This document shows positions 26,423 through 47,326 of a stretch of 48,614 nt of DNA, piece by piece (position 1 is the first letter of the stretch; each line of letters begins with the position of its first letter). This stretch comes from Thermoproteota archaeon. Lineage in GTDB: Archaea; Korarchaeota; Korarchaeia; B14-G2. The position numbers were made by a program, and so were the translations under genes. Under the pieces are notes generated by a model. It had not been told where the DNA came from. It did not search any database and was given only the letters and a program-made list of their open reading frames with translations. The stretch covers positions 1-48,614 of the forward strand of contig QMWA01000001.1 in NCBI GenBank assembly GCA_003661385.1. The letters run 5' to 3'.

Positions 26423-26426
26423 GCTA

Positions 26427-27218
26427 TCACCTCAACACTCCCTCCTGGAGAAGGTACTTCACAAGCTCCTCAGCAGCCTCCTCAGCAGGCTTCTCCTCGA
26501 TTATCACGCCTTTCCTCTTGACCTCAGGCGCATAGACGTCCGCTACCTTGACTTTAGACCCCTTCTCCCCAACCACGTCTGCACCGACCTCTAGGTCGCC
26601 TGCTCCCCAGTACACTATAGGCTTCTTAGATGCTCTTAGTATATCCCTCAGCGATGGGAGTCTTGGCTCATTTATCTCTCTCGTGACTGTAACTACAGCT
26701 GGCAGCTCCACCTCAACGACCTCATACTCCTCCTCTAGGTCCCTCTCAGCAGTGAGCTTCTCTCCCTCAACGCTGAGCTTCCTGACATAGGTTACCTGAG
26801 GTAGGTCTAGTAGCTCAGCTAGCCTAGGGCCCACCTGGGCTGAGAGCCCGTCCAGGGCCATTTCACCACACAGGATGAGCTTGTAGTCTCCTAGCTTTCT
26901 AGCTGCTGCTGCCAGCAGCCTCGCAGTAGCAAGGGTATCTGAGCCCTCGAATGCAGGGTCACTTAGAATGTAGACTTCATCAAGCCCCATTGCTAAGGCT
27001 TCTCTAGCAGCCTCTCTTGCAGCTTGGGGCCCAACGCAAAGCCCGGTTGCAGTCCATCCTGTCCTCTCCTTTACTCTTATTGCCTCCTCTATGGCCCTCT
27101 TGTCTATGTCTCCCGTCTTCCTTTTAGCTCCCTCAACCACAGGCTTCCTTGTAGAGGGGTCTATTCTGAGTTCTGAGGCGTCAATTGAGTACTTGAAGCA
27201 TGCTATGACGCGAGGCAA
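26427..27218 (-). CDS. etfB: Electron transfer flavoprotein beta subunit
   Basis: 263 residues. Features: DPSTRKPVVEGAKRKTGDIDKRAIEEA at the N-terminus, LCGEMALDGLSAQVGPRLAELL in the centre, and the signature VTVTREINEPRLPSLRDILRASKKPI. It binds AMP or a second FAD, depending on subgroup. Whether this ETF bifurcates cannot be told from this chain alone. The TTG start at 27216-27218 lies behind GGTGGTGAT. It is divergent from the PhoU-family regulator across a 68-base gap containing a perfect inverted repeat. Confidence 0.94.
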   Translation of the reverse strand: MPRVIACFKYSIDASELRIDPSTRKPVVEGAKRKTGDIDKRAIEEAIRVKERTGWTATGLCVGPQAAREAAREALAMGLDEVYILSDPAFEGSDTLATARLLAAAARKLGDYKLILCGEMALDGLSAQVGPRLAELLDLPQVTYVRKLSVEGEKLTAERDLEEEYEVVEVELPAVVTVTREINEPRLPSLRDILRASKKPIVYWGAGDLEVGADVVGEKGSKVKVADVYAPEVKRKGVIIEEKPAEEAAEELVKYLLQEGVLR

Positions 27219-32177: not shown

Positions 32178-33209
32178 TTAGTGCCCGCCATGCTTGCTTT
32201 TCTTCATTTCAGCAAGCTTCTCCACAGAAGTAAGCTTTCCAAGCTCCACCGCCTCTATGCACCCTGCTTCAACAGCTCTAGCAAAGAGCCTGCTCCCAAC
32301 CTCTGTTCTCACGAGCACAGTGGAGAAGCCTGCTTTCGTCCCCACTGAGCCAACTGAGATGTCTGCGAGCTCGCTTGTGAAGTCTGTGCAGGCCTTACAG
32401 GACCCGCGTACATACTCCTTCATCTCGCTAACTGGCCTTGAGAACACCTCCTCACTGCCACGGTAGGCTATGAACTTACCCTTCTTGATGTCAAACTTCG
32501 TTACTTCACTTAAGCTAACTGAGCTCTCCTCCAACAGCTTAGCAAGCTTGCTGTAGTCAAAGGACTCCATACAGAAAAGCCCTACCACAAGCTTCACTCT
32601 GCTACCCAGCTTAAGAGCACTCTCAGGAGAGTGCTGCATCCTCCTCACTCCTCTGACCACGCATGGCGTCCCCACTACGCCGACTTTCTCAGCTCCATAG
32701 CAGTAGACTGCGTCCCAGATGGCAGAAGCCATGTATGGGGGGGTGTACTTCGTGCCAGCTGCGTCTATAACCTCCTTTGCTGTCAAAGCGACCTTCGCAA
32801 AGGGCCTCCAAGGCTCCTCTCTCGAGGTGCCTGCTACAATCACTGCATCAAGCACCTTCTCCTCTAGAGCATACTTCAGCAGAGCAGTCACAACGCCTCC
32901 ATCCTGCCCCCTCTCACGTATCACTGGGTCTACAGCTCTAGCCTTATAGGCTTTGGTGAACACTCCAAGGGGCCCTGGCTTACTCTCGCCGAACAGCATA
33001 CCATATATCTCGTCACCGCCAGTCTGAGGACAGCTATTGTAGCAGAAGCCACACCTAAGGCATGGTCCAGCAAGCTTTGGGGTGTCATCGGCTATCGTGA
33101 TCGAGTTCACGAAGCACGCTGAGACACACGCCCCGCAGGCAGTGCAGATGCCTGCTCTAATGACCTCCTTAAGCAGGTGCGCGAACATCTTCCTAGGTAA
33201 GGAGCTCAC
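32178..33209 (-). CDS. FpoF/FrhB-type F420-dependent flavoprotein with two [4Fe-4S] sites
   Basis: About 343 residues, the length of FpoF. An N-terminal ferredoxin domain (CTACGACVSAC and CLRCGFCYNSCPQ) is followed by the FrhB core: RERGQDGGVVTALLKYALE, GTKYTPPYM, VGVVGTPCVVRGVRRMQ, GLFCMESF and SCKACTDFTSELADISVGSVG. FpoF oxidises F420H2 and passes electrons to a complex I-like module. Other family members serve sulfite or glutamate enzymes, so F420 use is inferred. I prefer GTG 33207-33209 behind GAGGAG, a one-base gap from the preceding gene. Last gene of the NuoCD-like operon. Confidence 0.83.
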   Translation of the reverse strand: MSSLPRKMFAHLLKEVIRAGICTACGACVSACFVNSITIADDTPKLAGPCLRCGFCYNSCPQTGGDEIYGMLFGESKPGPLGVFTKAYKARAVDPVIRERGQDGGVVTALLKYALEEKVLDAVIVAGTSREEPWRPFAKVALTAKEVIDAAGTKYTPPYMASAIWDAVYCYGAEKVGVVGTPCVVRGVRRMQHSPESALKLGSRVKLVVGLFCMESFDYSKLAKLLEESSVSLSEVTKFDIKKGKFIAYRGSEEVFSRPVSEMKEYVRGSCKACTDFTSELADISVGSVGTKAGFSTVLVRTEVGSRLFARAVEAGCIEAVELGKLTSVEKLAEMKKSKHGGH

Positions 33210-33210
33210 C

Positions 33211-33522
33211 TCACAGCTCCTCAAAGCCTAAGACTCGCCTGACAACCAAGTCTATGGCTTCTCCGATGTCTGCCTCGAGTATCCTGCTAGCTTTCTTCTC
33301 AGCCTCCTCCTCTATCCTCTTTGCCTCAGCACTAGCCTCCTTGATCTTCTTCTCCTTGATCTCCTCAGCTTTCTCTAGCGCCTTTCTCTTCTCTCTCTCG
33401 AGTATCTCCTTGGCCTTCTCCTCTGCTTCAGCAAGTATCTCGCTACTCTTCCTCTTAGCCTCTTCAACTATCCTCTTAGCCTCCTCCTCTGCTTTAATGA
33501 TCTCGAGAAGAACCTCGCTCAT
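33211..33522 (-). CDS. Coiled-coil protein resembling A-type ATPase subunit H
   Basis: About 103 residues, almost entirely a charged helix: long Glu/Lys/Ala heptads (EEEAKRIVEEAKRKSSEILA), then a short C-terminal segment IDLVVRRVLGFEEL. The size and composition fit AhaH, a peripheral-stalk subunit of archaeal ATP synthase. However, no other ATPase gene is here, and any long coiled coil could look like this. Start at ATG 33520-33522 with GGTG six bases before it. It lies between the NuoCD-like gene and the FpoF-like gene in one operon and may be a structural linker for that complex. Confidence 0.62.
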   Translation of the reverse strand: MSEVLLEIIKAEEEAKRIVEEAKRKSSEILAEAEEKAKEILEREKRKALEKAEEIKEKKIKEASAEAKRIEEEAEKKASRILEADIGEAIDLVVRRVLGFEEL

Positions 33523-33557
33523 CAGCTCCACCCAGCCTCTGACTCCAGTTTTAAAAT

Positions 33558-35069
33558 TTAACCTGAGATCCTGATGAGCTTCACCTCACCCGTGGTTTTG
33601 TCCCTAATCTTGAGCTTTACTGTCTGCGGCGTCATCAGAGCCATGTAGTACAGCCCTTTAACAGCCTCTTCAACTGAAAGCCCTATGGTAGCCTCCAACA
33701 TAGCTGCTGCATTCACGACATATGGGTGCTTAGCCCTATAGCAGCTCACCCTATCTCCACCTGCTGTCTCAATGAGTACCACATGCTCTCCTCCTGGGCT
33801 TTCTACCCTAGCCACACATAGCCCTCTACCAGCTTTCCTAGCTACCCTAGACCTGAACGCGCCTGCAGGCGCTGTCCTAAGGGCTTCAGCAGCTATATCC
33901 ATGGCTTCAATGGCTTCTCTAAGCTCAAGCTCCATGATGCTAGCTAGGTCTCCCCCACTCTCTACGAGAGCTGCCTTCTTCAGCTCACTGTACACCGCAT
34001 AAGGCTCGTCGACCCTAACATCCAAGGCAGCTCCACATGCCCTTGCAACTACGCCAGTAGCCCCCTCCACTAGGCTCCCCCTTACTTTGCATACACCACT
34101 GAGCTCTTCGCAGGCCTTGTCTACCACCTCACTTGACTCAAGCTTCTCTCTGGCTTCACTTAGCCTGCTAGCCAGCTTACTCTCCTTATCTCCGCTGATA
34201 TCGAAGGCGACGCCCCCGATCAGAATAGCTCCAAGCCCTAGAGGGCTTCCAGTTGCAGCCACAAAGCCGCTCCTCAGGAGCCTTTCAGCCTCATGCCCCT
34301 CGCTCCAGCTGTATCCAAGCCATCTCAGAAACCTAACTAGGTGCTCCACATGTGCTAGTGCTCTCTCGGCTTCAAGGAGCACAGCTCTGAGGTACTCGCC
34401 TCGTAACGGTGGGCTCACACCAAGAGCTTCCTCAGCAGCCATCGAGTAGCATGCTGCCTGAGCTATGGGGTATCTTCCAGCCCTTTCAGCTAGAGGAAGG
34501 CTTCTGAACAGCCCTTGCTCCTCAGCTCTCCTCTCAACGCCGTAGTGTAATCCCCCTAGAGCGAGAACCCCGCCTTCCACCATGCCCTTCTCAGCTGAGA
34601 CCTCGAAGAAAGCCCCTCCCCTCAAGCTAGCAGAAGCCAGCTTACTTCTCACGTCCTCAGCTCTGGCTCTAAGCGGATAAAGCTCACTAGGCCACCCTTC
34701 GGGCAGAAAGAGCACCATGGATTTGCCTCTCCCGCTGTATTCCACTCCAAGCAGGCTAGCTGTCTCTGCTTCATAAACTGCTGCAGCAGGATATACACCT
34801 GAGCTGGAATCCAGCTTCCACCCTTCAGCCGCCAGGATAACGACCCCTTCTCTGCCAGCTAGCAGGTACCTGACCAGGGGCCTCTCCTCTCTCAGGCATG
34901 CAGCTATGTAGGCTAGCCTGAAGCCGGCTTCCTTAAGCTTTCTGAGGGCCTCAACTAGAGCAGCAGCCTCAACCTGGGCTTCTACCTTCCCTCCTTTAAG
35001 CTCCCTAACCTCAGCAGCCCCCTCTCCAACAGAGCTCTTGACAAGCTCAAGTAAGCTGCCTGCCATCAT
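33558..35069 (-). CDS. NuoC-NuoD-like fusion (hydrogenase large subunit-like) without nickel cysteines
   Basis: Residues about 30-150 resemble NuoC (the VYPAAAVYEAETASLLGVEY and LFLPEGWPSELYPLR blocks). The rest resembles NuoD or group 4 [NiFe] hydrogenase large subunit (LALGGLHYGVERRAEE, RGEYLRAVLLEAERALAHVEHL). In real hydrogenases the first nickel motif is ERxCGICxxxH; here it reads LAERAGRYPIAQAA, with no CxxC. The C-terminus ends in IRDKTTGEVKLIRISG, also without a DPCxxC pair. It therefore cannot bind nickel and is a NuoCD-like adapter. Start at ATG 35067-35069; a GTG at 35087 is possible. It heads an operon and is divergent from the NuoB-ferredoxin fusion. Confidence 0.78.
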   Translation of the reverse strand: MMAGSLLELVKSSVGEGAAEVRELKGGKVEAQVEAAALVEALRKLKEAGFRLAYIAACLREERPLVRYLLAGREGVVILAAEGWKLDSSSGVYPAAAVYEAETASLLGVEYSGRGKSMVLFLPEGWPSELYPLRARAEDVRSKLASASLRGGAFFEVSAEKGMVEGGVLALGGLHYGVERRAEEQGLFRSLPLAERAGRYPIAQAACYSMAAEEALGVSPPLRGEYLRAVLLEAERALAHVEHLVRFLRWLGYSWSEGHEAERLLRSGFVAATGSPLGLGAILIGGVAFDISGDKESKLASRLSEAREKLESSEVVDKACEELSGVCKVRGSLVEGATGVVARACGAALDVRVDEPYAVYSELKKAALVESGGDLASIMELELREAIEAMDIAAEALRTAPAGAFRSRVARKAGRGLCVARVESPGGEHVVLIETAGGDRVSCYRAKHPYVVNAAAMLEATIGLSVEEAVKGLYYMALMTPQTVKLKIRDKTTGEVKLIRISG

Positions 35070-35103
35070 AGCACCATTGGGGCTCACTCTGAGCCTTCAA
35101 TAA

Positions 35104-35131
35104 GGTTACTAACCTAGCTGCATGCAGCTAG
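35104..35131. promoter_or_regulatory. Adjoining palindromes in the divergent promoter of the NuoCD-like and NuoB-like genes
   Basis: GGTTACTAACC at 35104-35114 (5+1+5 inverted repeat) shares its last base with an 18-base perfect palindrome, CTAGCTGCATGCAGCTAG, at 35114-35131. They lie between the minus-strand start near 35069-35087 and the plus-strand start at 35165. A GCTTATC run at 35138-35144 may be the TATA box of the plus gene, which would then be leaderless. The layout looks like an operator controlling both halves of the module. Confidence 0.55.
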
Positions 35132-35164
35132 AGCAAAGCTTATCTTCAGAGCTAGAAGCCCCCC

Positions 35165-35755
35165 ATGGGGCTTCACTTGCAGGCTAGCTCAGGGCTTAAG
35201 CTAGTTCATGTAGCTGTTGGCCTGTGCAGCGGCTGCCTCAGGCAGGTTGAAGCTGCTCTAAGCTCTGGGGGAGAGTTGCACGAGAAGAGCATCCTAGTTG
35301 TCTCAGGTGCTCCTTCTCACATACATGCACGCGAGATACAGGAGGCTTGGAGGTCTCTACCAGAGCCTAAGGTCGCTATCGCTGTAGGTGCATGTGCTTG
35401 CAGCGGTGGAGTATTCAGGGAGTGCTATGCTTTTAGGGCTCTAAACAGCATTATACCAGTCAAAGTGATGGTGTCAGGCTGCCCCCCTCCTGAGGAAGCA
35501 ATCCTCAAAGCTCTTAGAGAGGAAGCTGCCTCAGCTGATGTAGATGGCTATAGAGGGGCTCCAGCTATAAACGAAGAACTCTGTGTAGCTTGTGGGCTAT
35601 GTAGCCGGGAATGCCCACCTGGAGCATTAGAGGCGGGGGAAGGAGAGAAACCGAGGCTTAACCAGTGGAGGTGCATAAGCTGCAGCCGATGCGAGATGAT
35701 ATGCCCTAGAGGAGCCATTGAGATGACACCTAGATTCACCATATCGCTCACTTAA
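35165..35755 (+). CDS. NuoB-like [4Fe-4S] subunit fused to a two-cluster ferredoxin (NuoI-like)
   Basis: The 196-residue protein combines two complex I modules. Residues 1-120 follow the NuoB/hydrogenase small-subunit pattern with four cluster ligands: CSGC in GLCSGCLRQVE, the C in GACACSGG, and C in SGCPPPEEA. Residues 130-190 carry two [4Fe-4S] motifs, CVACGLCSRECPPGA and CISCSRCEMICPRGA, like NuoI or HycF. Such a fusion, outside a full hydrogenase operon, is unusual. It probably docks onto the divergent NuoCD-like protein and takes electrons from the FpoF-like flavoprotein. ATG 35165 lacks a ribosome site and is probably leaderless. Confidence 0.8.
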   Translation: MGLHLQASSGLKLVHVAVGLCSGCLRQVEAALSSGGELHEKSILVVSGAPSHIHAREIQEAWRSLPEPKVAIAVGACACSGGVFRECYAFRALNSIIPVKVMVSGCPPPEEAILKALREEAASADVDGYRGAPAINEELCVACGLCSRECPPGALEAGEGEKPRLNQWRCISCSRCEMICPRGAIEMTPRFTISLT

Positions 35756-35759
35756 GTGC

Positions 35760-36773
35760 TTAGCTAGGCTTGCACGCCTCTCTAAGCATTTTTCTCACAG
35801 CATACTCCGGGAATTCCTCTAGAACCCTCCTATACCTGCTCTCTGGGAACACTGATATCGCCTCTCTAGCTAGCCTGCACTTCTCACATACATATCTGAA
35901 TGCACTCCTCGCAACCCTCTTCAGAAACTTCCTCTCACGCCTAATTACAGCTGCTCTTAAAGCAGCTCCATACCCGGGTATGAGCATAAACACCCCTCCA
36001 GGCCCCCTAGCAAGCACAAGCTTCCTAAAAAGCTCTATAGCAGCTTCTCTACCTGAGAAGAATGCTACCATGGGGAATATCGATGTCATCAGGTCTGCTT
36101 CAGCAGCTCCATTCTGGAGGAGCTTACTCAAGTCAACGAGGTCATCTGCTACCTGGAAAGCCATTCCACATAGGAGCCCATAGACGTATGCTCTCTCCCG
36201 CAGCTCTGAAGGGGCTTTAGCTGCTATGGCCCCCAGCTTACAGGCTGTAGCAAAAAGCTCACCTGCCTTCAGCTTCACTATGCTTTCATAAAGCTCCTCC
36301 TGTATGCTCCCATAGATCAAGCTTGAAGCTATGTCCTTGAATCCAAGAGGCTCCATGACAGCTCCTCTAGCAACGTTGTACACAGCCTCGCTTAAAGCAT
36401 CCTTGCTGCCGTCCTCGCTCTTGGTCAGCTTTATGGCGGCGCTCATAAGCAAGTCAGCGAGTAGCACAGCCTTTCTAGGGCCTATAACTGCGTAAAGAGG
36501 AAGCTTCCCCCTTCTAACCTTATGCCTGTCAACGTAGTCGTCGTGGGTCAGTGTTCCAGCGTGTATCATCTCAATTGCTGCAGCATACTCCAGCGCATCT
36601 TCTCTTCTCCCTCCGAGCGCTTCACATGTGAGCAGGCACAGGACTGCGCGGAGCCTCTTCCCTCCAGTGAGTTGGAATAGCATGTGTCTGCTGAAGTGGA
36701 GCCTTCTAGCCATCTCAGCTAGCTTAAGGTCTATCAGAGGCCTAGTTTCCCTAGCATAGCTCTCGATATCCAA
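35760..36773 (-). CDS. Polyprenyl diphosphate synthase (trans-isoprenyl type, GGPP synthase-like)
   Basis: 337 residues. Seen are the IPP-binding GGKRLRAVL (about residues 37-45), the first aspartate-rich motif DDYVD (residues 78-82) preceded by MIHAGTLTH, and the second DDLVD in FQVADDLVD. The products of the family are C15-C50 chains for ether lipids or quinone tails. The neighbours (reductase and MenA-like transferase) favour a quinone side chain, but a lipid GGPP role is equally possible. The C-terminal part is longer and more basic than usual (RRERKFLKRVARSAFRYVCEKC). TTG start at 36771-36773. Confidence 0.88.
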   Translation of the reverse strand: MDIESYARETRPLIDLKLAEMARRLHFSRHMLFQLTGGKRLRAVLCLLTCEALGGRREDALEYAAAIEMIHAGTLTHDDYVDRHKVRRGKLPLYAVIGPRKAVLLADLLMSAAIKLTKSEDGSKDALSEAVYNVARGAVMEPLGFKDIASSLIYGSIQEELYESIVKLKAGELFATACKLGAIAAKAPSELRERAYVYGLLCGMAFQVADDLVDLSKLLQNGAAEADLMTSIFPMVAFFSGREAAIELFRKLVLARGPGGVFMLIPGYGAALRAAVIRRERKFLKRVARSAFRYVCEKCRLAREAISVFPESRYRRVLEEFPEYAVRKMLREACKPS

Positions 36774-36821
36774 TGTCCCCTCCCAAGCTCAGCACCACCT
36801 CCTCATAAGCTTGGCGCTCCA

Positions 36822-37835
36822 CTAGCCCCTAAGCAAGGCGGTTCCCAGAGCTTTCACCAGCTCTAGGACAGGAACTCTGCTGCCAGAGTAAAGCTGGGTA
36901 ACGAGGCTGTCTCCAGCTTCAGCTATAACCCTACCTCTAAGCCCTTCTGGAGTAGCGATGATAGCCTTAAGCACAGCCTTACCCCGCTGAAACCTCCTAC
37001 CGAAGGCGGATTTCCACAGCCTCTCATAGCTCTTAGTGAAGCATATCCTACCAGAGAAGAGGGCGTACTTTATTCCCTCTCCACTAGATGGCATCACGAG
37101 GCCGGCTGCCTCACCAGCAGCCACAACACCCTTAGCTGTGAACCTCCTTATAGGCCCACTGACGCATACTGGTGCAGCTCTAATGTGCCCGCTTAAGCTG
37201 AGCTTAAGCTTCCTTAAACCCAGCCTAAGCCACGCCTCGAGAGCACGCAAGCTGGAGAACCCTCCTACACCAAAGTTCACTGTCCTGTCTCCTCTTGGGA
37301 AAGCCCACCCATATCCAGAGGGAAGTATGCTTATCAAGATTTCATCTTCACTCAATCTCCCCTTACAGTAGCACTGCAAGGCTGGAATAGATCTGTACCC
37401 ACGGTAGTCAAGGCCTCTCCACCTAGCTATGCTACCTGGGTTCCCGCTTGCATCTACGATGAGATCGCATTCAAGCCTGCTCCACGGCCTTACTCTGCTT
37501 CCCATCTTGACCACTGCTCCCTCTGACTCCGCTGCCTCCTTAAGCTCTCTCAGCATAGCCTTCTTGTCTATTATGTACCCGAATGTGCTAGCTGACTCTA
37601 CCCTCCGAAGGGGCCTCCAGTATAGGCAAAGCAGGCACCCAGCTACCCTATTCAGTATAAAGTCACCGCAGCCTGGTGGCAGGTGCCTCATCGTGTCCTC
37701 TGGTATACCCTCGCCACATGGTTTAGCTCCGAGCTCGCGGCTCTTTTCATACACCACCACACCATGCCCAGCTCTAGAAGCCCAGTATGCGCAGCTCAGC
37801 CCGGCTACTCCGGCTCCCACAACTACTAGCCTCAA
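36822..37835 (-). CDS. Geranylgeranyl reductase-family FAD protein
   Basis: 337 residues. An N-terminal GxGxxG FAD loop (VVVGAGVAGLSCAYWASRAG) is followed by PCGEGI, the DLIVDASGNPG strand, and the family signature GYGWAFPRGDRTVNFGVGG. AAGLVMPSSGEGI is the C-terminal FAD motif. Archaeal GGRs saturate the isoprenoid chains of ether lipids and of menaquinone. The gene belongs to the large FixC/GGR superfamily, but no FixX ferredoxin is nearby, so isoprenoid reduction is the better guess. TTG start at 37833-37835, close to the TATA box shared with ubiA; probably co-transcribed with the prenyl synthase. Confidence 0.88.
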   Translation of the reverse strand: MRLVVVGAGVAGLSCAYWASRAGHGVVVYEKSRELGAKPCGEGIPEDTMRHLPPGCGDFILNRVAGCLLCLYWRPLRRVESASTFGYIIDKKAMLRELKEAAESEGAVVKMGSRVRPWSRLECDLIVDASGNPGSIARWRGLDYRGYRSIPALQCYCKGRLSEDEILISILPSGYGWAFPRGDRTVNFGVGGFSSLRALEAWLRLGLRKLKLSLSGHIRAAPVCVSGPIRRFTAKGVVAAGEAAGLVMPSSGEGIKYALFSGRICFTKSYERLWKSAFGRRFQRGKAVLKAIIATPEGLRGRVIAEAGDSLVTQLYSGSRVPVLELVKALGTALLRG

Positions 37836-37857
37836 GCTTCATCCCACTGCTTCGTAA

Positions 37858-37865
37858 CCGTTATA
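37858..37865. promoter_or_regulatory. Shared TATA box between geranylgeranyl reductase and UbiA genes
   Basis: GTTATAAG (CTTATAAC on the other strand) lies 24-31 bases before the ubiA ATG at 37889 and a similar distance from the divergent TTG at 37835. Both genes look leaderless. Confidence 0.45.
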
Positions 37866-37888
37866 AGCTGCTCCATTAGCAGCCAGCT

Positions 37889-38782
37889 ATGCTCGGCAGC
37901 TGGCTCAAGCTAATTAGAGCGAACTTCCTCCTCCTTACTCCAGTAGTCTACTCGCTGGGCATAGCCTCTCTCCTATACGATGGCATCCCAATAGATGCTG
38001 TAGATGCAGCCTTAGCTTTGGTCGCAAGCATACTATCACACATGTCGGTCAATGTGCTGAACAACTACTTCGACTACAAGAGCGGAATAGACCTGAAGTC
38101 CAGGAAAACACCCTTTAGTGGAGGTGTCGATGTCCTGGCTAGAGGCGAGATATCACCGAGAGGGGCTCTCGCACTTGGGCTCACCTCAGGTCTCACTGCA
38201 GCTGCTATAGGAGCCTACTACATGCAAAAGTGCCCCAAGCTCATTGGAGCCATAGTGGCCTATGCTGCAGCCTGCGTTACCTTATACACCCCTGTTCTAT
38301 CTCATGTTCCAGCTTTATCAGAGGTTGTCGCTGGAACAGGCTTCTCGCTGATGTGCCTGTGGGCTTACGTGGTTCAAGCCAGAGCTTTGAGTTCGACAAT
38401 AGCCTCACTATACGTGTTCTCATCGATACTCGTCGGAGTCCTGCTGCTTCTAAACGAGTTCCCCGACATGGAAGTGGATAAGGAAGCTGGTAGAAGACAC
38501 ACTGTAGTGCTATTGGGGAGAGGTGGGGCAGCAAGGGTGTACGCAGCTCTAGTAGCTGCAGCTTACATCACTCTCATCGCTGCAGTGGCTGCCCGCATCC
38601 TACCACTAGCTGCTCTCCTAGCTCTGGCGACAGCGCCTCTGGCAGTAGACTCCTCAAGAAGGGTGCTAGCTAGCCCAGATAGCTTTGAAAGCATGCTTCA
38701 AGCGATGGCCAGGAACCTAGCTGTGGTCCTGCTGTCCATAGCTCTAGCCTCAACGGGGTTATCTGCTGCAGCGCTGCTATGA
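37889..38782 (+). CDS. UbiA-family prenyltransferase, MenA-like
   Basis: 297 residues with about eight or nine membrane helices. The two aspartate motifs of the family are NNYFDYKSGID (about residues 56-66) and NEFPDMEVDKEAGRRHTVVLLG (about 190-211). The FSGGVDVLARGEISP segment and the second motif resemble MenA, which attaches a polyprenyl chain to dihydroxynaphthoate in menaquinone synthesis. Archaeal digeranylgeranylglyceryl phosphate synthases belong to the same superfamily and are the main alternative. Its place beside the prenyl synthase, GGR and the complex I operon supports quinone synthesis. It is probably leaderless. Confidence 0.88.
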   Translation: MLGSWLKLIRANFLLLTPVVYSLGIASLLYDGIPIDAVDAALALVASILSHMSVNVLNNYFDYKSGIDLKSRKTPFSGGVDVLARGEISPRGALALGLTSGLTAAAIGAYYMQKCPKLIGAIVAYAAACVTLYTPVLSHVPALSEVVAGTGFSLMCLWAYVVQARALSSTIASLYVFSSILVGVLLLLNEFPDMEVDKEAGRRHTVVLLGRGGAARVYAALVAAAYITLIAAVAARILPLAALLALATAPLAVDSSRRVLASPDSFESMLQAMARNLAVVLLSIALASTGLSAAALL

Positions 38783-38828: not shown

Positions 38829-38869
38829 AATTCAATGTGGAGGTTGCTGAGAGCCCCTCGGGGGGTTAT

Positions 38870-39268
38870 ATGCTTGCTCCAGGCTTCGACTTGGCAGCAG
38901 CCATCACACTCGCCCTCGCCTTCGCTATAGGCGTCGTTATAGGGGCTATTGGCTTTGTACTCGGCAGAATAATTTCACCAAGGCGAGAGCTCCCGATGAA
39001 GCGTGAGAGATACGAGTGCGGCAACAAGCCAATGGGGAGGGCTAGAGGATGGTTTGCAATGCAATACTACCCGTACCTCATAGTGTTCCTCACAGTAGAG
39101 CCCATAGCGATATACTGCTTCCTATCACTGATACTTGCCAAAGAAGCCCTCCTCCAAGTCTCAGCTATTCTAGCTCTGATAGTAGCTATGCTAGCTCCAA
39201 CCCTGCTCTTCGGTTTAGAGGCAGCTAGGAGGGTTGAGCTATGGCTTGTTCAGGAGGATTCATCCTGA
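38870..39268 (+). CDS. nuoA: NADH/F420H2:quinone oxidoreductase subunit A
   Basis: About 132 residues, three membrane helices. The second part shows the signature YECGNKPMGRARGWFAMQYYPYLIVFLTVEP, typical of NuoA/FpoA in the membrane arm near the quinone site. Start at ATG 38870 (MLAPGFD). The GTG at 38837 lies only about 10 bases from the TATA box and is less likely. First gene of an operon of eleven overlapping or nearly touching genes in archaeal order A-B-C-D-H-I-J-K-M-L-N. Confidence 0.93.
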   Translation: MLAPGFDLAAAITLALAFAIGVVIGAIGFVLGRIISPRRELPMKRERYECGNKPMGRARGWFAMQYYPYLIVFLTVEPIAIYCFLSLILAKEALLQVSAILALIVAMLAPTLLFGLEAARRVELWLVQEDSS

Positions 39269-39771
39269 TAGGTGAGCTTGAGGAGGTAGCGCGAAAAGCT
39301 GCTCAGTGGCTAGTGGAGAAGACACCTATCAAGACGATAAGAGACTGGGGCATAAGGTTCTCCCTTTGGCCGGTGCACTTCACCACAGCATGCTGTGGGG
39401 CAGAGTTTGCAGCTACATCAGGCCCAAGGTACGATGCTGAGAGATACGGGTTCCTCCCGTTTACAGCCCCAAGGCAGTGCAACCTTATGCTGATAGAAGG
39501 CACGCTAACCAAGAAAATGGGCAGAGCTGCAAAGATAGTCTATGACCAGATGCCAGAGCCGAAGTTCGTCATAGCAATGGGAGTCTGTGGCTTAGATGGA
39601 GGGATATTCTGGAACAGCTATAACATAGTGAGGCCATGGCAGATCCTGCCAGTCGAGGTGTTCATACCAGGATGCCCACCTAGACCTGAAGCTGTAGCTA
39701 GAGCAATACTGATGCTACAGGAGAAGATAAAGAAGGAGGGTGTCAAAGTTGAAGCTAGAGGAGGTACTTGA
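39241..39771 (+). CDS. nuoB: Complex I subunit B, [4Fe-4S] cluster N2 protein
   Basis: 176 residues. N2 ligands: the tandem CC of TACCGAEF, C of GVCGLDGG and C of PGCPPRPE. Also GPRYDAERYGFLPFTAPRQCNLMLIEG. It hands electrons to the quinone. ATG 39241 overlaps nuoA by 28 bases. An AGGAGG run at 39250-39255 fits better to a CTG or ATA codon near 39265-39268, so the real N-terminus may be eight or nine residues shorter. Confidence 0.96.
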   Translation: MACSGGFILIGELEEVARKAAQWLVEKTPIKTIRDWGIRFSLWPVHFTTACCGAEFAATSGPRYDAERYGFLPFTAPRQCNLMLIEGTLTKKMGRAAKIVYDQMPEPKFVIAMGVCGLDGGIFWNSYNIVRPWQILPVEVFIPGCPPRPEAVARAILMLQEKIKKEGVKVEARGGT

Positions 39772-40228
39772 GCTCCTAAAAGCCGCGCTCAGCGGCGTCG
39801 AGTGCCTCATCGGAGAGGAAAGTGGGATACCGACGGTGAGAGTCCACCCAGAGAACCTCCTTGAGGCAGCTAAGAAGCTGAAGGAAAGCGGATTCGACCA
39901 CGTGAAGTCGGTAACCGGGTTAGACTACCCAGATGAAGGGGAGATAGAGGTAGTATACCATGTCTCATCATACACCAAGCCTGAGCTGACGAAGGTCATA
40001 GTAGCCTTGAAGGCTAGAGTCAAGAGGGACTCGCCAAAGCTCACGTCACTTTACGGGATATGGCCTAGCTCAGCCTACCTGGAGTCAGAGACCTACGACC
40101 TGATGGGGGTGGAGTTCGAGGGAAACCCGAAGCAGAGGAGGCTTCTTCTACCTGAAGACTACGAGGGAATCCCTCCACTCAGGAAGGACTTCAAGATACC
40201 TGTCGAGGGGGTTGATGCGGTTGAGTGA
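39749..40228 (+). CDS. nuoC: Complex I subunit C (30 kDa)
   Basis: About 159 residues, matching NuoC/FpoC: FDHVKSVTGLDYP, IEVVYHVSSY, LTSLYGIWPSSAYLESETYDLMGVEF, LLLPEDYEGIPPLRKDF. It connects the N-module side with subunits B and D. TTG 39749 has AAGGAGG nine bases upstream. GTG 39740 is another in-frame start but touches the ribosome site. It overlaps nuoB by 23 bases. Confidence 0.95.
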   Translation: MKLEEVLELLKAALSGVECLIGEESGIPTVRVHPENLLEAAKKLKESGFDHVKSVTGLDYPDEGEIEVVYHVSSYTKPELTKVIVALKARVKRDSPKLTSLYGIWPSSAYLESETYDLMGVEFEGNPKQRRLLLPEDYEGIPPLRKDFKIPVEGVDAVE

Positions 40229-41384
40229 GAGGACAATCGAGCTCTATATAGGCCCCCAGCACCCCGGCTCAGGCCACATGAGGTTTGACATAACGCTTGA
40301 CGGGGACATAATAGTGAAAGCTGAGCCTAGCATAGGCTACGTACACAGGTCAGTCGAGAAAATAGCAGAGACTAAAACCTACATCCAGATAGCTCCCCTG
40401 GTTGAGAGGCCTTCTCTGGCTGACACAGTCAACCCAAACCTAGGCTACATCCTAGCACTGGAGAAGCTTCTAGGAATTGAGGCTCCACCCAGAGCACAGT
40501 ACCTGAGGACACTAGCAGCTGAAGCAAACAGGATCCACAGCCACTTCTACGGTATAGGGATCCTAGGCATAATGCTAGGCTCCTCAACGGCATTCATGTG
40601 GGCCTTCGCAGACAGGGAGATCATGATAGAGCTCCTCCAGATGCTGACTGGAGCTAGGATAACATACTCATATGTAATACCAGGTGGAGTCAGGAGAGAC
40701 CTCCCAGTAGGCTTCAAGGAGGCAGCTGAAAAAGCGCTGAGGTACCTGGAGAGGAGGCTAAAAGACTACGAGAAGCTCTTCTTCGAGAACCCCGTCACAG
40801 TAGCTAGGCTCAAGGGCGTTGGGGTGCTGAAAAAGGAGGATGCTATAGCCCTAGGGATAGTGGGCCCAAACCTGAGGGCTTCAGGGGTCCACTATGATGT
40901 CAGGAGGATAGAGCCCTACGCTGCCTATGACGACCTAGACTTCGAGGTAGTGGTCAAGAAGGAGGGAGACTCCTACGCCAGGCTCATGGCTAGAGTCGAG
41001 GAGATAAAGCAGAGCATGCGTATAATAAGGCAGGTGCTCGAGAAGATACCTGATGGCCCAATACTCCACGAGAAGTACTACAAGATGATCCCTCCGAAGA
41101 CTAGAAAGCAGATAGAGGAGACTGGCAGGCTCAAGTTCCCAGCTGCATTCGCAACGCTAAAGCCCCCCAAGGGGGAGGCTTTGTCCAGGGTTGAGGGGGC
41201 TAGAGGAGAGTTCCTCTATTACGTTGTCAGCGATGGCTCACCTAGGCCATACAGGTTCAGAATGGTCTCCCCGTCATTCAGGAACGTATGGCTATTTGCC
41301 CACCTGCTTCCAGGCCACAGGCTAGCTGACATACCAGCCATATACGGTAGCATAGACTACTTCCCGCCCTGCGCTGACAGGTGA
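40212..41384 (+). CDS. nuoD: Complex I subunit D (49 kDa)
   Basis: 390 residues. Seen are GPQHPGSGHMRFDITLDGD, the quinone-pocket region, EPSIGYVHRSVEKI, RAQYLRTLAAEANRIHSHFYGIG and, late, AHLLPGHRLADIPAIYGSIDYFPPCADR. It has no nickel cysteine pairs; only a single C-terminal cysteine remains. The conserved H of GPQHPG and Y-region of the quinone site are in place. Start TTG 40212 (ATG 40215 directly after), overlapping the end of nuoC. Confidence 0.96.
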   Translation: MMRLSERTIELYIGPQHPGSGHMRFDITLDGDIIVKAEPSIGYVHRSVEKIAETKTYIQIAPLVERPSLADTVNPNLGYILALEKLLGIEAPPRAQYLRTLAAEANRIHSHFYGIGILGIMLGSSTAFMWAFADREIMIELLQMLTGARITYSYVIPGGVRRDLPVGFKEAAEKALRYLERRLKDYEKLFFENPVTVARLKGVGVLKKEDAIALGIVGPNLRASGVHYDVRRIEPYAAYDDLDFEVVVKKEGDSYARLMARVEEIKQSMRIIRQVLEKIPDGPILHEKYYKMIPPKTRKQIEETGRLKFPAAFATLKPPKGEALSRVEGARGEFLYYVVSDGSPRPYRFRMVSPSFRNVWLFAHLLPGHRLADIPAIYGSIDYFPPCADR

Positions 41385-41393
41385 GGTGGTTTC

Positions 41394-42419
41394 ATGCAGG
41401 TGTCTGAGATTATAAGCTGGCTGATAAACCTCCTCTTCTACAAGCCTGAGGTGTTCTGTCCAATATTCTATCCTGGGCTAGTCACAATCCTAGCTCTCCT
41501 CATATTCATAATCTGGCTTGAGAGGAAGATAGCTGCCAAAGTACAGCTCAGATATGGCCCACTCTATGTCACAAGGAAGGCTGGTGGAATCCTTCAGCTT
41601 CTAGCAGATCTCCTCAGGTACATGTTCCAGGAGCCAATCATACCGAAGACTGTAGACAAGATAGCGTTCATAGCAGGCCCAGTCCTCCTGTTCGCGACGG
41701 CATACGTGCCTGCTGCCCTCCTGCCGGCTACAGCAGAGTTCACAGGGCTGAGGAGCGAGCTCAGCCTGCTAGCTGTGCTAGCTCTCCTCACCCTAGCACC
41801 GATATTCGACATAATAATAGGCTGGGGAAGCAACAACAAGTTCAGCCTGATAGGCAGCATGAGAGAAGGGTACATTGTGATGTCATATGAGATACCAATG
41901 TTCCTCTCTACTCTAGCAATAGCCATGGTATACGGGAGCCTAAACATAGTTGAGATAGTTGAGATGCAAAGCCGCTGCTGGGGCATCTTACTCAACCCCA
42001 TTGCAGCAGCCACGTTCCTCCTGGTTGCCCTCATATCCACAGCCAGGTTCCCCTTCGAGATAGCTGAAGCTGAAACAGAGATAGTCATGGGGCCATACAC
42101 AGAGTACAGTGGGATCCTATATGGGCTGCTGATGGGCGCCAGCTACGTCAAGTTCTATGTGCTTAGCATGCTCTTCGCCCTCCTGTTCCTAGGAGGATGG
42201 CACCCTAGCATCACGTGGCTCGAGAAGATACACCCCGCTGCACCTGGCCTAGTAGTGTTCATCAAAGCTCTCATCATAATGGTATTCGGCATATTCCTGA
42301 GAGCTGTATACCCAAGGTTCAGAGTAGACCAAGCGATAAGGGTAGGCTGGCACCTGCTGTTCATGCTCTCAATGCTCTCAATAGCATACTCCCTAGCTGT
42401 AATCTGGCTAGTAGGGTGA
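41394..42419 (+). CDS. nuoH: Complex I subunit H, quinone-channel membrane protein
   Basis: 341 residues with about eight membrane helices. Signatures: WLERKIAAKVQLRYGPLYV, GGILQLLADLLRYMFQEPIIP, STARFPFEIAEAETEIVMGPYTEYSG. The acidic residues of the E-channel are present in the FEIAEAETEI loop. It forms the link between the peripheral arm and the antiporter-like subunits. ATG 41394 starts behind GAGGTGG. Confidence 0.96.
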   Translation: MQVSEIISWLINLLFYKPEVFCPIFYPGLVTILALLIFIIWLERKIAAKVQLRYGPLYVTRKAGGILQLLADLLRYMFQEPIIPKTVDKIAFIAGPVLLFATAYVPAALLPATAEFTGLRSELSLLAVLALLTLAPIFDIIIGWGSNNKFSLIGSMREGYIVMSYEIPMFLSTLAIAMVYGSLNIVEIVEMQSRCWGILLNPIAAATFLLVALISTARFPFEIAEAETEIVMGPYTEYSGILYGLLMGASYVKFYVLSMLFALLFLGGWHPSITWLEKIHPAAPGLVVFIKALIIMVFGIFLRAVYPRFRVDQAIRVGWHLLFMLSMLSIAYSLAVIWLVG

Positions 42420-42423
42420 TAGC

Positions 42424-42900
42424 ATGGAGCTCCCTAAGAGAGTTGTTCACCACATTGAAGCCCTCTTGACTGGAGCTAAGTACCTGGTTGCAAAGCCTAG
42501 GATGACAGTGATGTACCCTGAGGAGGCTCAGATCCTCCCAGAAGGCTACAGAGGGATGCCTAAGTTCAACAGGGAGAAGTGCAGGAGCTGCAGCCTATGT
42601 GCAAGGATCTGTCCAGCTAACGCCATAAAGATGTACACAGTTGAGGTTGAAGGCGAGAAAAAGAAGAAGTACCCTGGGATAAACTACAACAGGTGCATCT
42701 TCTGTGGGTTCTGCGTGGACATCTGCCCAGCTGGCGCCCTGGAGTTCACCGACATCCACGACTACGCCTCATACAGCCTCGAGGACCTCGTGTTTAAGCC
42801 TGACAGGTTTGCTGAAGGACCTCCCCCGAGGCCTTTCAAGCCTAAGCTCGTTAAGCCCATGCTAGATGAGGAGGTGGGGTTGAAGTATGTTCCAGGCTAA
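42424..42900 (+). CDS. nuoI: Complex I subunit I, two [4Fe-4S] ferredoxin-like protein
   Basis: 158 residues. Cluster motifs CRSCSLCARICPANAIK and CIFCGFCVDICPAGALEF. In the absence of NuoEFG it is the usual entry point for electrons from ferredoxin or from an FpoF subunit. The C-terminal tail of about 40 residues after the second cluster is rich in proline and lysine (GPPPRPFKPKLVKP). It overlaps nuoJ by 14 bases. Confidence 0.96.
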   Translation: MELPKRVVHHIEALLTGAKYLVAKPRMTVMYPEEAQILPEGYRGMPKFNREKCRSCSLCARICPANAIKMYTVEVEGEKKKKYPGINYNRCIFCGFCVDICPAGALEFTDIHDYASYSLEDLVFKPDRFAEGPPPRPFKPKLVKPMLDEEVGLKYVPG

Positions 42901-43372
42901 CATAGTTGAAGGTCTAATATTTACCTTAGCTGCAGCTCTCACAATAGCTTCAGCTGCGCTGGTTGTGTCAGCGAAGTCGCTGGTCTACTCCGCCTTCTTC
43001 CTAGCACTAGTGGGCGCAGGCAACGCTGTCTTCATGGCTATGCTAGGCTTCCCAGTAATATCGCTGTTCCAGCTGTCTGTCTACGTTGGAGCTGCAGTCA
43101 CATTCATCCTGTTCTCCATAACCATGTTCAGGAAGCCTGTGAGAATAGAGCCTACAGCTGGTATACTGGCCTTAGATGCTGCAGTGCTAGCTACAGCAGG
43201 CCTCCTCTATGCTTTCCAGTCAGTCACAGGGACCCCTGTCTCAGTAGGCTTCAAGGAGATCTCGTCCCTGCTCATAGGCAAGTACAGGTTTGCTCTGATT
43301 ATAGCGTCCCTAGCCCTCGTTACCACGCTTATTGAAGCCATAACCCTAGCTATGAGAGGTGAGATGAAATGA
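42887..43372 (+). CDS. nuoJ: Complex I subunit J
   Basis: 161 residues, five hydrophobic helices. The pi-bulge helix region SLFQLSVYVGAAVTFILFSITMF is recognisable. This small membrane subunit helps form the proton path between H and the antiporters. Start ATG 42887 inside the nuoI end; the stop overlaps the nuoK ATG by four bases. Confidence 0.92.
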   Translation: MFQANIVEGLIFTLAAALTIASAALVVSAKSLVYSAFFLALVGAGNAVFMAMLGFPVISLFQLSVYVGAAVTFILFSITMFRKPVRIEPTAGILALDAAVLATAGLLYAFQSVTGTPVSVGFKEISSLLIGKYRFALIIASLALVTTLIEAITLAMRGEMK

Positions 43373-43671
43373 CGGTCCTACCTTATCTTGCTGTGTCGGC
43401 CTGCCTGTTTGGAATAGGCCTATATGGCCTGCTGTCAAGTAGGAACTTCATCAAGATGCTCCTGTCAGCTGAGGTTATATTCAATGGCGGCCTGCTTGCG
43501 TTGCTGTCTTTGGCAGCTGCCTCAGGTGCGCCCCCAACAGGCGGTACTATAGCGATACTAGCCATAGCGATTGCTGCAGCCGAAGTTGGTGTGGCGGTCT
43601 CTATAGCAATCCTCATGTTCATGCTGAAGGGAGATGTAGATGTGTATAAGCTTGAGAAGTTTAAGGGGTGA
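43369..43671 (+). CDS. nuoK: Complex I subunit K
   Basis: 100 residues, three helices. The typical GLYGLLSSRNFIKMLLSAEVIFNGGLLALLSL carries the membrane glutamate, and the third helix IAIAAAEVGVAVSIAILMF carries the second. Start ATG 43369 (ATGA overlap with the nuoJ stop); stop overlaps the nuoM GTG. Confidence 0.94.
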   Translation: MTVLPYLAVSACLFGIGLYGLLSSRNFIKMLLSAEVIFNGGLLALLSLAAASGAPPTGGTIAILAIAIAAAEVGVAVSIAILMFMLKGDVDVYKLEKFKG

Positions 43672-45215
43672 TTGATGTGCAGCTAGAGTTCCCAGTCCTA
43701 ATGTCCACAGTGGTCGTCCCTATATTAGGGTCGCTGTTACTGCCGCTATTCGGTAGAGAGGAAAGCCCAGAAGCCAACGCTACAGCAGCTACCATACTCC
43801 TACTATGGCCTCTAGTCGCCATAGCAGGGCTAATGGCTACAACAGGCCTTAAGGAGCCGGTCATAGACCCGCCTGTCTTCTCAAGCACCAGAGCAGGCAC
43901 CTTCACCATGATACTGGATGGCTTAAACGCTCCGCTAGCCATATCCATAGCAGTTGTCACAGCGTTCGTAGCTATGTACTCACTGCCTTACATGAAGCAC
44001 AGGTTCGAGGAGATGGAGCACGAAGGTGAGAAGCCCCCATCCTGGGGAGTATACTATATGCTCTATGTCATGTTCTCTGCTGCAATGCTAGGCACAGTCC
44101 TCTCGACAAATGTCCTCGAATTCTACCTATTCCTAGAGCTTAGCCTGCTTCCAAGCTTCCTCCTAATAGCCTTCTACGGGTACGGTGAGAGAGCTAAGAT
44201 AGCAATCCTCTACCTGATCTGGACTCACGTAGGTGCTCTATTGTTCCTAGCTGGAGCAATGGTTCTAGGCTTAAAGACCGGGATATTTGACATAATAAAC
44301 CCAGCTACCCTACAGCACTACATCGCGCTGGGAGAAAGGCTCCCTGCAGCCGTAAGGATGCCTGTTGCAATAGCTCTCATAGTAGGATTGTTCGTCAAGA
44401 TGGCTGTCTTTGGTGTCCACATATGGCTGCCATACGCTCACGCTGAGGCCCCAACTCCCGTGTCAGCGCTCCTATCACCAAATCTGATCGGCATAGCAGG
44501 CTACGCGCTAGTCAGGATAAGCTACACATTCTTCCCAAAGGAGTTCAAGGCTGTATCACCATACCTGACATTCCTAGCATTACTGACAATGATATATGGT
44601 GGTTTCATGGTTCTTGCACAGGATGACTTCAAGAGGCTGCTAGCATACTCCAGTATAAGCCAGATGGGCTACATACTCCTTGGCGTGTCAAGCCTGCTTC
44701 CAAGCGGCATAGCTGGAGCAATGCTCCACTACGCCTCTCATGCAGTCGGGAAAGCACTACTCTTCATGACTGCAGGAACCCTGATAGTGCAGCTGCATGG
44801 GCTGAGGAGCATAAGCAGGATGGGTGGATTGGCGCCTAGGATGCCATACACAGCTGCACTGGCTCTAATAGGCTTTATGCACATCACAGGAGTACCTCCA
44901 TCTCTAGGTCTCTGGAGCGAGATCCTCATAGTCATGGGTGCAGTCAACAGGGCGATAGAATCAGGGTCAAACTACTTCATAGCCCTGGTAGCTGGCTTGC
45001 TGGTAGCCATAGGGCTGTCCACAGCATACGCCTTCGTCACGATGAAGAGGATATTCTTCGGAGAGCCATCTAAGGCAGCTGAGGAAGCTAAGGAGGCTGG
45101 AAGAGGCATAATCCTACCGATGGCTCTCATAGCTGCCATGGGCATGATCTTCTTCCTGATGCCATACAAGCTCGTCAACCCGCTAGTAGACTTGGTAACC
45201 TCTCTGCTGAGGTGA
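43668..45215 (+). CDS. nuoM: Complex I antiporter-like subunit M
   Basis: 515 residues, about 14 membrane helices. Placed as M by EFYLFLELSLLPSFLLIAFYGYGE with its glutamate, and by VHIWLPYAHAEAPTPVSALLSPNLIGIAGYAL, DDFKRLLAYSSISQMGYILLG, HYASHAVGKALLFMTAGTL. Key lysine and histidine residues are in place. GTG 43668 overlaps the nuoK stop. In this operon M precedes L, a frequent archaeal order. Confidence 0.93.
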   Translation: MIDVQLEFPVLMSTVVVPILGSLLLPLFGREESPEANATAATILLLWPLVAIAGLMATTGLKEPVIDPPVFSSTRAGTFTMILDGLNAPLAISIAVVTAFVAMYSLPYMKHRFEEMEHEGEKPPSWGVYYMLYVMFSAAMLGTVLSTNVLEFYLFLELSLLPSFLLIAFYGYGERAKIAILYLIWTHVGALLFLAGAMVLGLKTGIFDIINPATLQHYIALGERLPAAVRMPVAIALIVGLFVKMAVFGVHIWLPYAHAEAPTPVSALLSPNLIGIAGYALVRISYTFFPKEFKAVSPYLTFLALLTMIYGGFMVLAQDDFKRLLAYSSISQMGYILLGVSSLLPSGIAGAMLHYASHAVGKALLFMTAGTLIVQLHGLRSISRMGGLAPRMPYTAALALIGFMHITGVPPSLGLWSEILIVMGAVNRAIESGSNYFIALVAGLLVAIGLSTAYAFVTMKRIFFGEPSKAAEEAKEAGRGIILPMALIAAMGMIFFLMPYKLVNPLVDLVTSLLR

Positions 45216-47326
45216 AGCCCTTGGAGCTAGCTACAGCCTCAGCTGTACTCACATGGCTACTACCATACATCGGGGCTCTGGTAGCACTGGTAGCTAAGGG
45301 CAAGGCTAGAGACTACACCTGCGCAGGGGTCCTGCTAGTCAGCGCCCTCTTCTCCACAGTGCTCTGGAGGTCTGTGATAGCTGGAGGCGAGCCTGTGGTC
45401 TTCAAGAAGCCGTGGATCGAGGCCCTAGGCCTAGAGATAAACCTCGGAGTGTACGTGGACAGCCTAGCAGCCTACATGGGGCTGGTAGTAGCCTGGCTCT
45501 GCTTCCTGATAGGCTTCTACAGCCTGAAGTACATGGAAGGTGACCCAGGCTTAACCAGGTACTGGTTCTTCTTCGACTTCTTCGTGGGCTCAATGCTCCT
45601 CCTAGTCTACGCTGAGAACCTGATAACGATGTTCCTGGGATGGGAGGGGACAGGCCTAGCATCATACGCCCTAATAGGCCACTGGTACACCGACGAGGAG
45701 GAGCGCTGGGTGGGAGACCCAGGCAGAAAGGCGCTAGGGGTCCCAATGTGGTTCCCACCAAGCCACAGCGGAGTGAGAGCCATAGTCTTCACCAGGCTAG
45801 GCGACGTCGGCTTCATAGCTGGCATAGCAGTGCTGTACGCGCTGACAGGCACGTTCAGCATACCTGAGCTAGCTGAGCACCCAGAGTACTGGGCTCTACC
45901 ACTAGCAGCAAGAGGCCTCCTCTACCCATTCCTACTCGTATTCTCGCTAGGAGCCTTAGCTAAAAGCGCCCAGTTTCCATTCCATGAGTGGCTTGTCACA
46001 GCTATGACAGGCCCAACCTCAGTCTCAGCTCTGATACACGCGGCGACAATGGTTAAGGCCGGGGTCTTCTTCATGCTCAGATTCGCTCCCATATTCGTGG
46101 CGGCAGCCCACATACCTGAAGCAGCACCTGCAGTGCACAGCTTCTTCGCGACTATAGCCCTGATAGGGGGCTTCACAGCATTCTTCATGGCAACCCAGGC
46201 TACAGTAGCCAGAGAGCTGAAGCTCATCCTAGCCTTCTCGACAGCATCCCAGCTAGGCTACATGTTCCTGGCAATCGGCTCCTCAGGGCTTCTACACGAG
46301 TTCGTGAGTGGGTTCGCAGCATGCTTCAACCACCTGATGAGCCACGCAGTATTCAAGGCATCACTGTTCCTAGCAGCTGGAGCAGTGATACACGCCGTCC
46401 ACTCTAGGTTCATAGACGACATGGGAGCCCTCTCAAAGTACATGAAGCTCACATTCATAGCAATGCTCCTGGCAGCACTGAGCCTATCAGGTGTCCCGCC
46501 GTTCATGGGCTTCTGGACGAAAGACTCCGTAGTGGAGGCTGCCAAGCACGCGCACCTAGCGCTCCCGACTGCATTCGGCGCTGTGACCTCGCTTCTGACA
46601 GCATTCTACTCAATGAGGATGCTCTGCATAGTATTCCTCGGGAGGGAGTCCAAGAACGTGGAGCACGCGCTAGAAGAGCACAAGCTCCATGAGGCACACC
46701 CGATAATGCTAGCCCCATACCTGCTGCTGGCCCTGGTGTCAATAGGCCTAGGCATAGCATGGCCCCTAGCATACCCAGCTCTGATGAAGACCCTGACACA
46801 CAGTGTCATAGGCCTGGAAGAAGTCCCACATGAGTTCCACCTGCATATCGACGTGCAGCTCACAGCTACATGCTCCACACTGGTAGCAGCAGGCCTTCTA
46901 CTGGCCATAGCAAACTACTTCAAGCCAGCTCTCAGACTAGACTCAGCTCTGCTAAAGCAGCCGCCGCTGAAGGCTCTCAGAGAGTTCCTCTATGACAGGT
47001 GGCTTCTTAACTCAGTGTACTACAAGATATTCGTCTACGGTGGAGCAGCGTTTGCTAGAGCAGCCTTCAAGTGGTTCGACACTCTAGTGGTAGACGGCCT
47101 ATACCACAGGCTAATACCATGGCTCACAATGTGGTTCAGCAGAGAAGCTTTCAAGAACTTTGAGACACCAGTGATAGACGAAGGCTACCACAGCAAGATC
47201 CCGCATGCCTTCATTAAGGCTGGAAGCGTGTTCAGGAGAGCTCAGACTGGGAGAATAAACCACTATCTACTCACATTCTTCACAGGCTTGGTTATCGTAG
47301 CCATATTAGTCCTCTGGGTGATATAA
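45212..47326 (+). CDS. nuoL: Complex I antiporter-like subunit L
   Basis: 704 residues. The core shows FLGWEGTGLASYALIGHWY, AKSAQFPFHEWLVTAMTGPTSVSALIHAATMVKAGVFFMLR, ELKLILAFSTASQLGYMFLA and NHLMSHAVFKASLFLAAG. The long C-terminal part (about 560-704) includes the lateral helix HL and last membrane helix, as in full-length NuoL. GTG 45212 overlaps the nuoM stop by four bases. It is a complete proton-pumping subunit. Confidence 0.95.
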   Translation: MKPLELATASAVLTWLLPYIGALVALVAKGKARDYTCAGVLLVSALFSTVLWRSVIAGGEPVVFKKPWIEALGLEINLGVYVDSLAAYMGLVVAWLCFLIGFYSLKYMEGDPGLTRYWFFFDFFVGSMLLLVYAENLITMFLGWEGTGLASYALIGHWYTDEEERWVGDPGRKALGVPMWFPPSHSGVRAIVFTRLGDVGFIAGIAVLYALTGTFSIPELAEHPEYWALPLAARGLLYPFLLVFSLGALAKSAQFPFHEWLVTAMTGPTSVSALIHAATMVKAGVFFMLRFAPIFVAAAHIPEAAPAVHSFFATIALIGGFTAFFMATQATVARELKLILAFSTASQLGYMFLAIGSSGLLHEFVSGFAACFNHLMSHAVFKASLFLAAGAVIHAVHSRFIDDMGALSKYMKLTFIAMLLAALSLSGVPPFMGFWTKDSVVEAAKHAHLALPTAFGAVTSLLTAFYSMRMLCIVFLGRESKNVEHALEEHKLHEAHPIMLAPYLLLALVSIGLGIAWPLAYPALMKTLTHSVIGLEEVPHEFHLHIDVQLTATCSTLVAAGLLLAIANYFKPALRLDSALLKQPPLKALREFLYDRWLLNSVYYKIFVYGGAAFARAAFKWFDTLVVDGLYHRLIPWLTMWFSREAFKNFETPVIDEGYHSKIPHAFIKAGSVFRRAQTGRINHYLLTFFTGLVIVAILVLWVI

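Follow-up and report, generated by a model that had tools for sequence, protein, structure and literature searches.

In the 48,614-nucleotide stretch of archaeal DNA analysed here (the window), three neighbouring genes, P0001, P0002, and P0003, encode what we judge, with about even confidence, to be a soluble F420-linked oxidoreductase without nickel, descended from the peripheral portion of a [NiFe] hydrogenase of the group 4 type. This proposal is built on features that were observed directly, i.e. the genes, their domain make-up, the Fe-S ligands, the lost nickel ligands, the lost quinone-site features, and the F420 genes of the host genome. The contig was assigned to the korarchaeal lineage because its NuoD is 67–77% identical to the NuoD proteins of class-mates; the host genome (1.74 Mb, 91% complete) is the sole member of its own family.

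Three genes of the locus are encoded on the minus strand in the order P0002 (33558..35087, 509 amino acids), P0004 (33211..33531, 106 amino acids), and P0001 (32178..33224, 348 amino acids), with a gap of 26 bases between the first two and an overlap of 14 bases between the last two. The fourth, P0003 (35165..35755, 196 amino acids), is located on the plus strand and is divergent from P0002, the two start codons being separated by a 77-base intergenic region (35088..35164); the start of P0002 is uncertain, with an ATG at residue 7 or 8 as a possible alternative. The original prediction had placed all four genes in the same operon, which holds for P0002, P0004, and P0001 and not for P0003, and it had delimited the module as 33211–35755, an interval that leaves out the FpoF-like gene P0001. 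Its descriptions of the proteins, namely a NuoC-NuoD-like fusion, a NuoB-NuoI fusion, a coiled coil, and a protein of the FrhB/FpoF type, were borne out, and the domain matches of the module proteins are far above chance. The claim that the module has no membrane subunits of its own also stands: neither the ORFs nor the profile searches revealed a membrane gene in 32178–35755. The codon usage of the module genes resembles that of the neighbouring genes. The surrounding region contains genes for a polyprenyl synthase, a geranylgeranyl-reductase-like protein, and UbiA (35760–38782), which separate the module from a nuo operon, and homologues of the first two are also found upstream of nuo in a class-mate (L226). 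Elsewhere in the window, EtfA- and EtfB-like genes lie side by side on the minus strand (25472–27218).

P0002 matches the Pfam families Complex1_30kDa (36 bits; cut-off, 22.5) and Complex1_49kDa (60 bits; cut-off, 24), and among solved structures the closest in sequence is HycE of the Escherichia coli formate hydrogenlyase (75 bits), which is likewise a C-D fusion. As originally predicted, the protein lacks both CxxC nickel motifs, and careful alignment (A1) disclosed none: the first hydrogenase motif is degenerate and reads LAERAGRYPIAQAA (34452..34493, minus strand) where relatives have RICGxC, and the second reads MTPQTV (33618..33635, minus strand) where relatives have DPCxxC. This loss of the nickel ligands rules out normal hydrogenase chemistry. 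The second motif is followed by a hydrogenase-like C-terminal tail, KLKIRDKTTGEVKLIRI, which is absent from the NuoD of complex I. In the same alignment, the GPQHP segment, which contains the quinone-site His of NuoD, is replaced by KLASASLRGG, with the loss of the GPQHP histidines; a loop deletion at this site was considered and rejected, as the residue count indicates a substitution instead. The invariant structural residues identified by alignment with hydrogenases and NuoD proteins are retained. A structural model of P0002 has a pLDDT of 76 overall and >90 in the helical core, and its D domain can be overlaid on the 49-kDa subunits of complex I and on HycE (Z-scores of 38.9 and 38.7, approximately 331 residues, 2.2 Å), a match that partly reflects the 11-row alignment of relatives on which the model was built. 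P0002 is thus predicted by the model to keep the full NuoD fold. In the D-domain tree its branch (4.7 changes per column) is too long for placement, leaving the hydrogenase and complex I sides both possible, and a grouping with Fqo and korarchaeal Nuo is disfavoured (p-AU, 0.03).

P0003 consists of a NuoB-like domain (Oxidored_q6, 62.7 bits) fused to a NuoI-like domain (Fer4_7, 47 bits; 35546..35734, plus strand), the latter containing two CxxCxxCxxxCP motifs and a GYRG motif. All four proximal-cluster cysteines (C21, C24, C77, and C106) and all eight ferredoxin cysteines are present, giving 12 ligands for three [4Fe-4S] clusters, in agreement with the original description of the Fe-S ligands as intact. 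The first pair of proximal-cluster cysteines, C21-x-x-C24 (CSGC; 35225..35236, plus strand), is a CxxC of the hydrogenase type and not the tandem CC of complex I (N2 ligands), which is carried by the window NuoB (alignment A3). The same alignment indicates that approximately 10 residues are absent from P0003 at 35261..35287 (plus strand), corresponding to the PRxDxERxG segment, i.e. the beta1–beta2 loop of the complex I PSST subunit. The PSST loop and the GPQHP loop of complex I line the quinone pocket beside NuoH. In the B-domain tree, P0003 groups with the B-I fusions of another archaeal family, designated f34 (93/85), on the side of the group-4-type hydrogenase small subunits and apart from the complex I/Fqo clade (100/99); the P0003 branch (2.7 changes per column) and the f34 branch are both long, and long-branch attraction is possible.

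P0001 was identified as an FrhB/FpoF-like F420 oxidoreductase with two N-terminal [4Fe-4S] motifs. It scores above the curated cut-off of the NCBIfam FrhB subfamily NF006807 (276.1 versus 269 bits) and above that of PF04432 (157 versus 23 bits), and below that of FpoF (NF040616; 169 versus 475 bits). Its best solved match is 8riu_B (216 bits), with an N-terminal 2x[4Fe-4S] region and an FrhB domain; going by the described subunit layout (PMC11493965), we take 8riu_B to be the F420-reductase subunit of an ethanotroph's CO dehydrogenase. All eight ferredoxin cysteines are present, and C188, C218, C276, and C279 are presumably the four cysteines expected in this family for the FrhB cluster. P0001 is the only FrhB-family protein that a family search found in the 91% complete genome, which also contains CofC, CofD, and CofE genes clustered on contig C81. 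The family match and these genes support the predicted F420 link at the level of sequence. The cluster on C81 (L124:1455–5111) comprises the CofE, CofC, and CofD genes together with a nitroreductase-family gene. Among the genomes examined, CofD was missing from all 25 class-mates and present in one of three other members of the phylum.

The nearest homologue of P0001, from Baldrarchaeum (51% identity), stands alone without adjacent NuoBCD genes, and other relatives stand alone or form part of hydrogenase or fqo/fpo operons. Members of the FrhB family couple F420 to CO dehydrogenase (CODH) and Fwd (PMC11493965), and genes of this family cluster in ANME-1 with those for Pfor, CODH, HdrA, and NuoF (PMC9012536). 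Soluble FpoF/FqoF has been proposed to act as a ferredoxin:F420 oxidoreductase (PMC10667645, PMC9012536). A Wood-Ljungdahl role for F420 was considered and rejected, as Mtd was not found in the host genome, though five other genomes of the phylum have it. An frhB-hdrA-mvhD arrangement has been described for other Korarchaeia (PMC10667645); a complex of P0001 with HdrA and MvhD receives no support from gene order in this genome, where HdrA and MvhD genes are adjacent on contig C43 without frhB. On another contig of the host (C23; L220:7246–11730), an 848-amino-acid protein combines a helix-turn-helix-like N-terminus (DUF7347) with HdrA-like and MvhD (FlpD) domains and its gene immediately precedes a pair encoding the small and large subunits of a [NiFe] hydrogenase.

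The best named match of the coiled-coil protein P0004 is subunit H of A-type ATP synthase, at 34.5 bits and below the cut-off of 48.5. P0004 is also the best match to this family in the host genome, and sequence inspection revealed no subunit H gene with the partial ATPase operon (E, F, D, and I) on contig C35. P0004 may therefore not be a redox part and may belong elsewhere, making its link to the module uncertain.

No P0002 orthologue was found in the phylum or in approximately 780 sampled archaeal genomes (two partly overlapping sets of approximately 390), where no match was better than 1e-33 or exceeded 35% identity. A pattern scan of 84,980 genomes, which detects only close relatives, likewise yielded no relative of P0002. 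A survey of whether the four genes co-occur in other archaea, as suggested with the original prediction, accordingly returned no orthologous set in the sampled archaea. The same survey did identify a membrane-less NuoC-HdrB-NuoD-NuoB.I cluster in seven other archaeal genomes, all of family f34 (L204–L210), which encode the strong homologues of P0003; the nickel ligands are kept there, with both CxxC motifs present in all seven D proteins. The gene order is (ferredoxin)-NuoC-HdrB-NuoD-NuoB.I, with housekeeping genes on the flanks, and the clusters occur in two or more distinct genomic contexts. In the up to 18 kb examined around them, homologues of NuoH, NuoL, and NuoM were not detected, whereas a control locus contained such genes. 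The family is probably hadarchaeal, judging from the similarity of its other hydrogenases to those of Hadesarchaea DG-33. The f34 cluster appears to encode a soluble, HdrB-linked [NiFe] hydrogenase of the complex I type and, among the genomes examined, comes closest to the korarchaeal module by sequence comparison. Reports of membrane-less NuoBCDI or of group 4 hydrogenases linked to HdrB were sought in the literature and none of relevance emerged, which is weak evidence of absence. Separately, Nuo/Fpo-like operons with an FpoF-like gene and a D protein containing both nickel CxxC motifs were observed in Hadesarchaea DG-33 (L140:6428–12794) and Methanophagales ANME-1-LC (L144:345–8987), and these operons are candidates for F420-linked membrane-bound [NiFe] hydrogenases.

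The module was compared with these and other known systems. It shares with the f34 cluster a NuoB-I fusion (35–41% identity over both domains), NuoC/NuoD-like partners, and the absence of NuoH/L/M, whereas the f34 cluster has HdrB in place of FrhB, separate C and D proteins, a nickel-type D protein, and a largely present PSST loop. The subunit folds, the CxxC proximal cluster, and the C-terminal tail of the large subunit are common to the group 4 [NiFe] hydrogenases (FHL HycE, Mbh, and Ech), but the module has neither nickel motif and no membrane subunits. Ehr and Mbx also possess a group-4-like large subunit without nickel ligands (PMC6349859) but have Mrp-like membrane subunits. Frh (group 3a) similarly combines a small subunit, two ferredoxin clusters, and an FrhB protein, whereas P0002 is of the NuoCD type and nickel-less, and P0003 matches FrhG (TIGR03294) at 45 bits against a cut-off of 245. 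Fpo and Fqo contain the same B, C, D, I, and F-type parts and differ in the tandem CC, the quinone-site features, the membrane subunits, and the FpoF score noted above. The F420-reductase subunits of CODH and Fwd in ethanotrophic archaea (8riu/8rja) have the same layout as P0001, with a different partner enzyme.

The chemistry left to the module would be that of F420/FAD in P0001 and approximately six [4Fe-4S] clusters, and a soluble F420-linked electron-transfer enzyme working with ferredoxin is the most economical reading; that the enzyme is soluble, one of the options originally put forward, is plausible from the sequences. We infer that P0001–P0003 form one complex, as well as its direction of flow and its partner. 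P0001 would exchange hydride with F420 at its FAD, and electrons would travel via its [4Fe-4S] clusters to P0003, reaching the two clusters of the I domain and the proximal cluster of the B domain. P0002 would serve as a scaffold or docking subunit, with a large-subunit fold and no nickel, H2, or quinone chemistry. The likeliest partner would be ferredoxin, making the enzyme an F420:ferredoxin oxidoreductase, and a protein acceptor bound at P0002 is possible. The f34 clusters show that such a membrane-less arrangement does exist. The co-function of P0001–P0003 rests on adjacency, because P0003 is on the other strand and the nearest homologue of P0001 has no NuoBCD genes beside it. Since one genome (one MAG) carries the set, complex formation and mere adjacency are inseparable and conservation is not demonstrable. 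The very long branch of P0002 also speaks against the proposal.

The main rival explanation assigns P0001 to the neighbouring complex, which has no F subunit of its own. This nuo operon (38837..47326, plus strand), defined by profile searches and comparison and not part of the module, is a separate unit approximately 3 kb away that encodes NuoA, B, C, D, H, I, J, K, M, and L and no EFG; the NuoN gene probably extends beyond the end of the contig. Its NuoD is 46–51% identical to Archaeoglobaceae FqoD and shares with it an unusual GPQHxGSGHMR start and YFPPxADR end, by which similarity the operon encodes an Archaeoglobus-Fqo-like complex. P0001 would then be FqoF, the F420H2-input subunit, with P0002 and P0003 an unrelated or auxiliary pair. 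We regard this as a less probable explanation that nonetheless deserves weight, as the fqo operon ends with FrhB-family genes in Archaeoglobaceae loci, P0001 is the only candidate FqoF in the genome, and menaquinone-type prenyl-chain genes lie between the module and the nuo operon. However, P0001 belongs to the transcription unit of P0002 and not to the nuo operon, and the Nuo complex probably works without F420, since the same complex is present in korarchaeal genomes without detectable CofD. No homologues of P0001–P0004 were seen upstream of nuo in the korarchaeal relatives examined; as relatives without detectable CofD keep the complex without the module genes, the complex does not need the module.

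The original prediction had also allowed that the module is an alternative peripheral arm docking on the nuo membrane arm. That arm is encoded close by and P0002 and P0003 retain the CD and B domain folds, but the nuo operon already encodes B, C, D, and I subunits itself, P0003 has CxxC instead of CC, and the loss of the PSST loop and GPQHP argues against both quinone chemistry and docking, so that we consider this very improbable. Slightly less remote, and still unlikely, is a new active site, with a new substrate occupying the former NiFe pocket of P0002. The same pocket has been reused in complex I and sulfane reductases, and the fold and many invariant residues of P0002 are kept despite extreme divergence; however, no candidate ligand residues were identified, and there are no orthologues to reveal conserved pocket residues. 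We hold it equally doubtful that P0002 and P0003 are decaying hydrogenase relics. Their very long branches and their occurrence in a single genome fit decay, whereas the intact frames of 509 and 196 codons, the host-like codon usage, the complete set of P0003 cluster cysteines, and the structural invariants of P0002 do not.

The preferred reading, a soluble F420-linked oxidoreductase, bears on F420 oxidation and reduction in an archaeon where no F420-dependent Mtd was found. We further suggest, tentatively and with rather less confidence than in the enzyme itself, that archaeal complex-I/group-4-type B-C-D-I modules are soluble redox hubs with swappable partners (HdrB with nickel in f34, FrhB without nickel here), and that the window encodes an F420 oxidoreductase, free of both membrane subunits and nickel, of a type that has not been described before. 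Complex I is held to stem from hydrogenases whose nickel was lost while they were joined to a membrane pump. With neither nickel nor pump, the present set would mean that these parts had also taken another path and, alongside the membrane-less clusters with HdrB, would identify the B-C-D-I core as an electron-transfer unit that can be reused independently.
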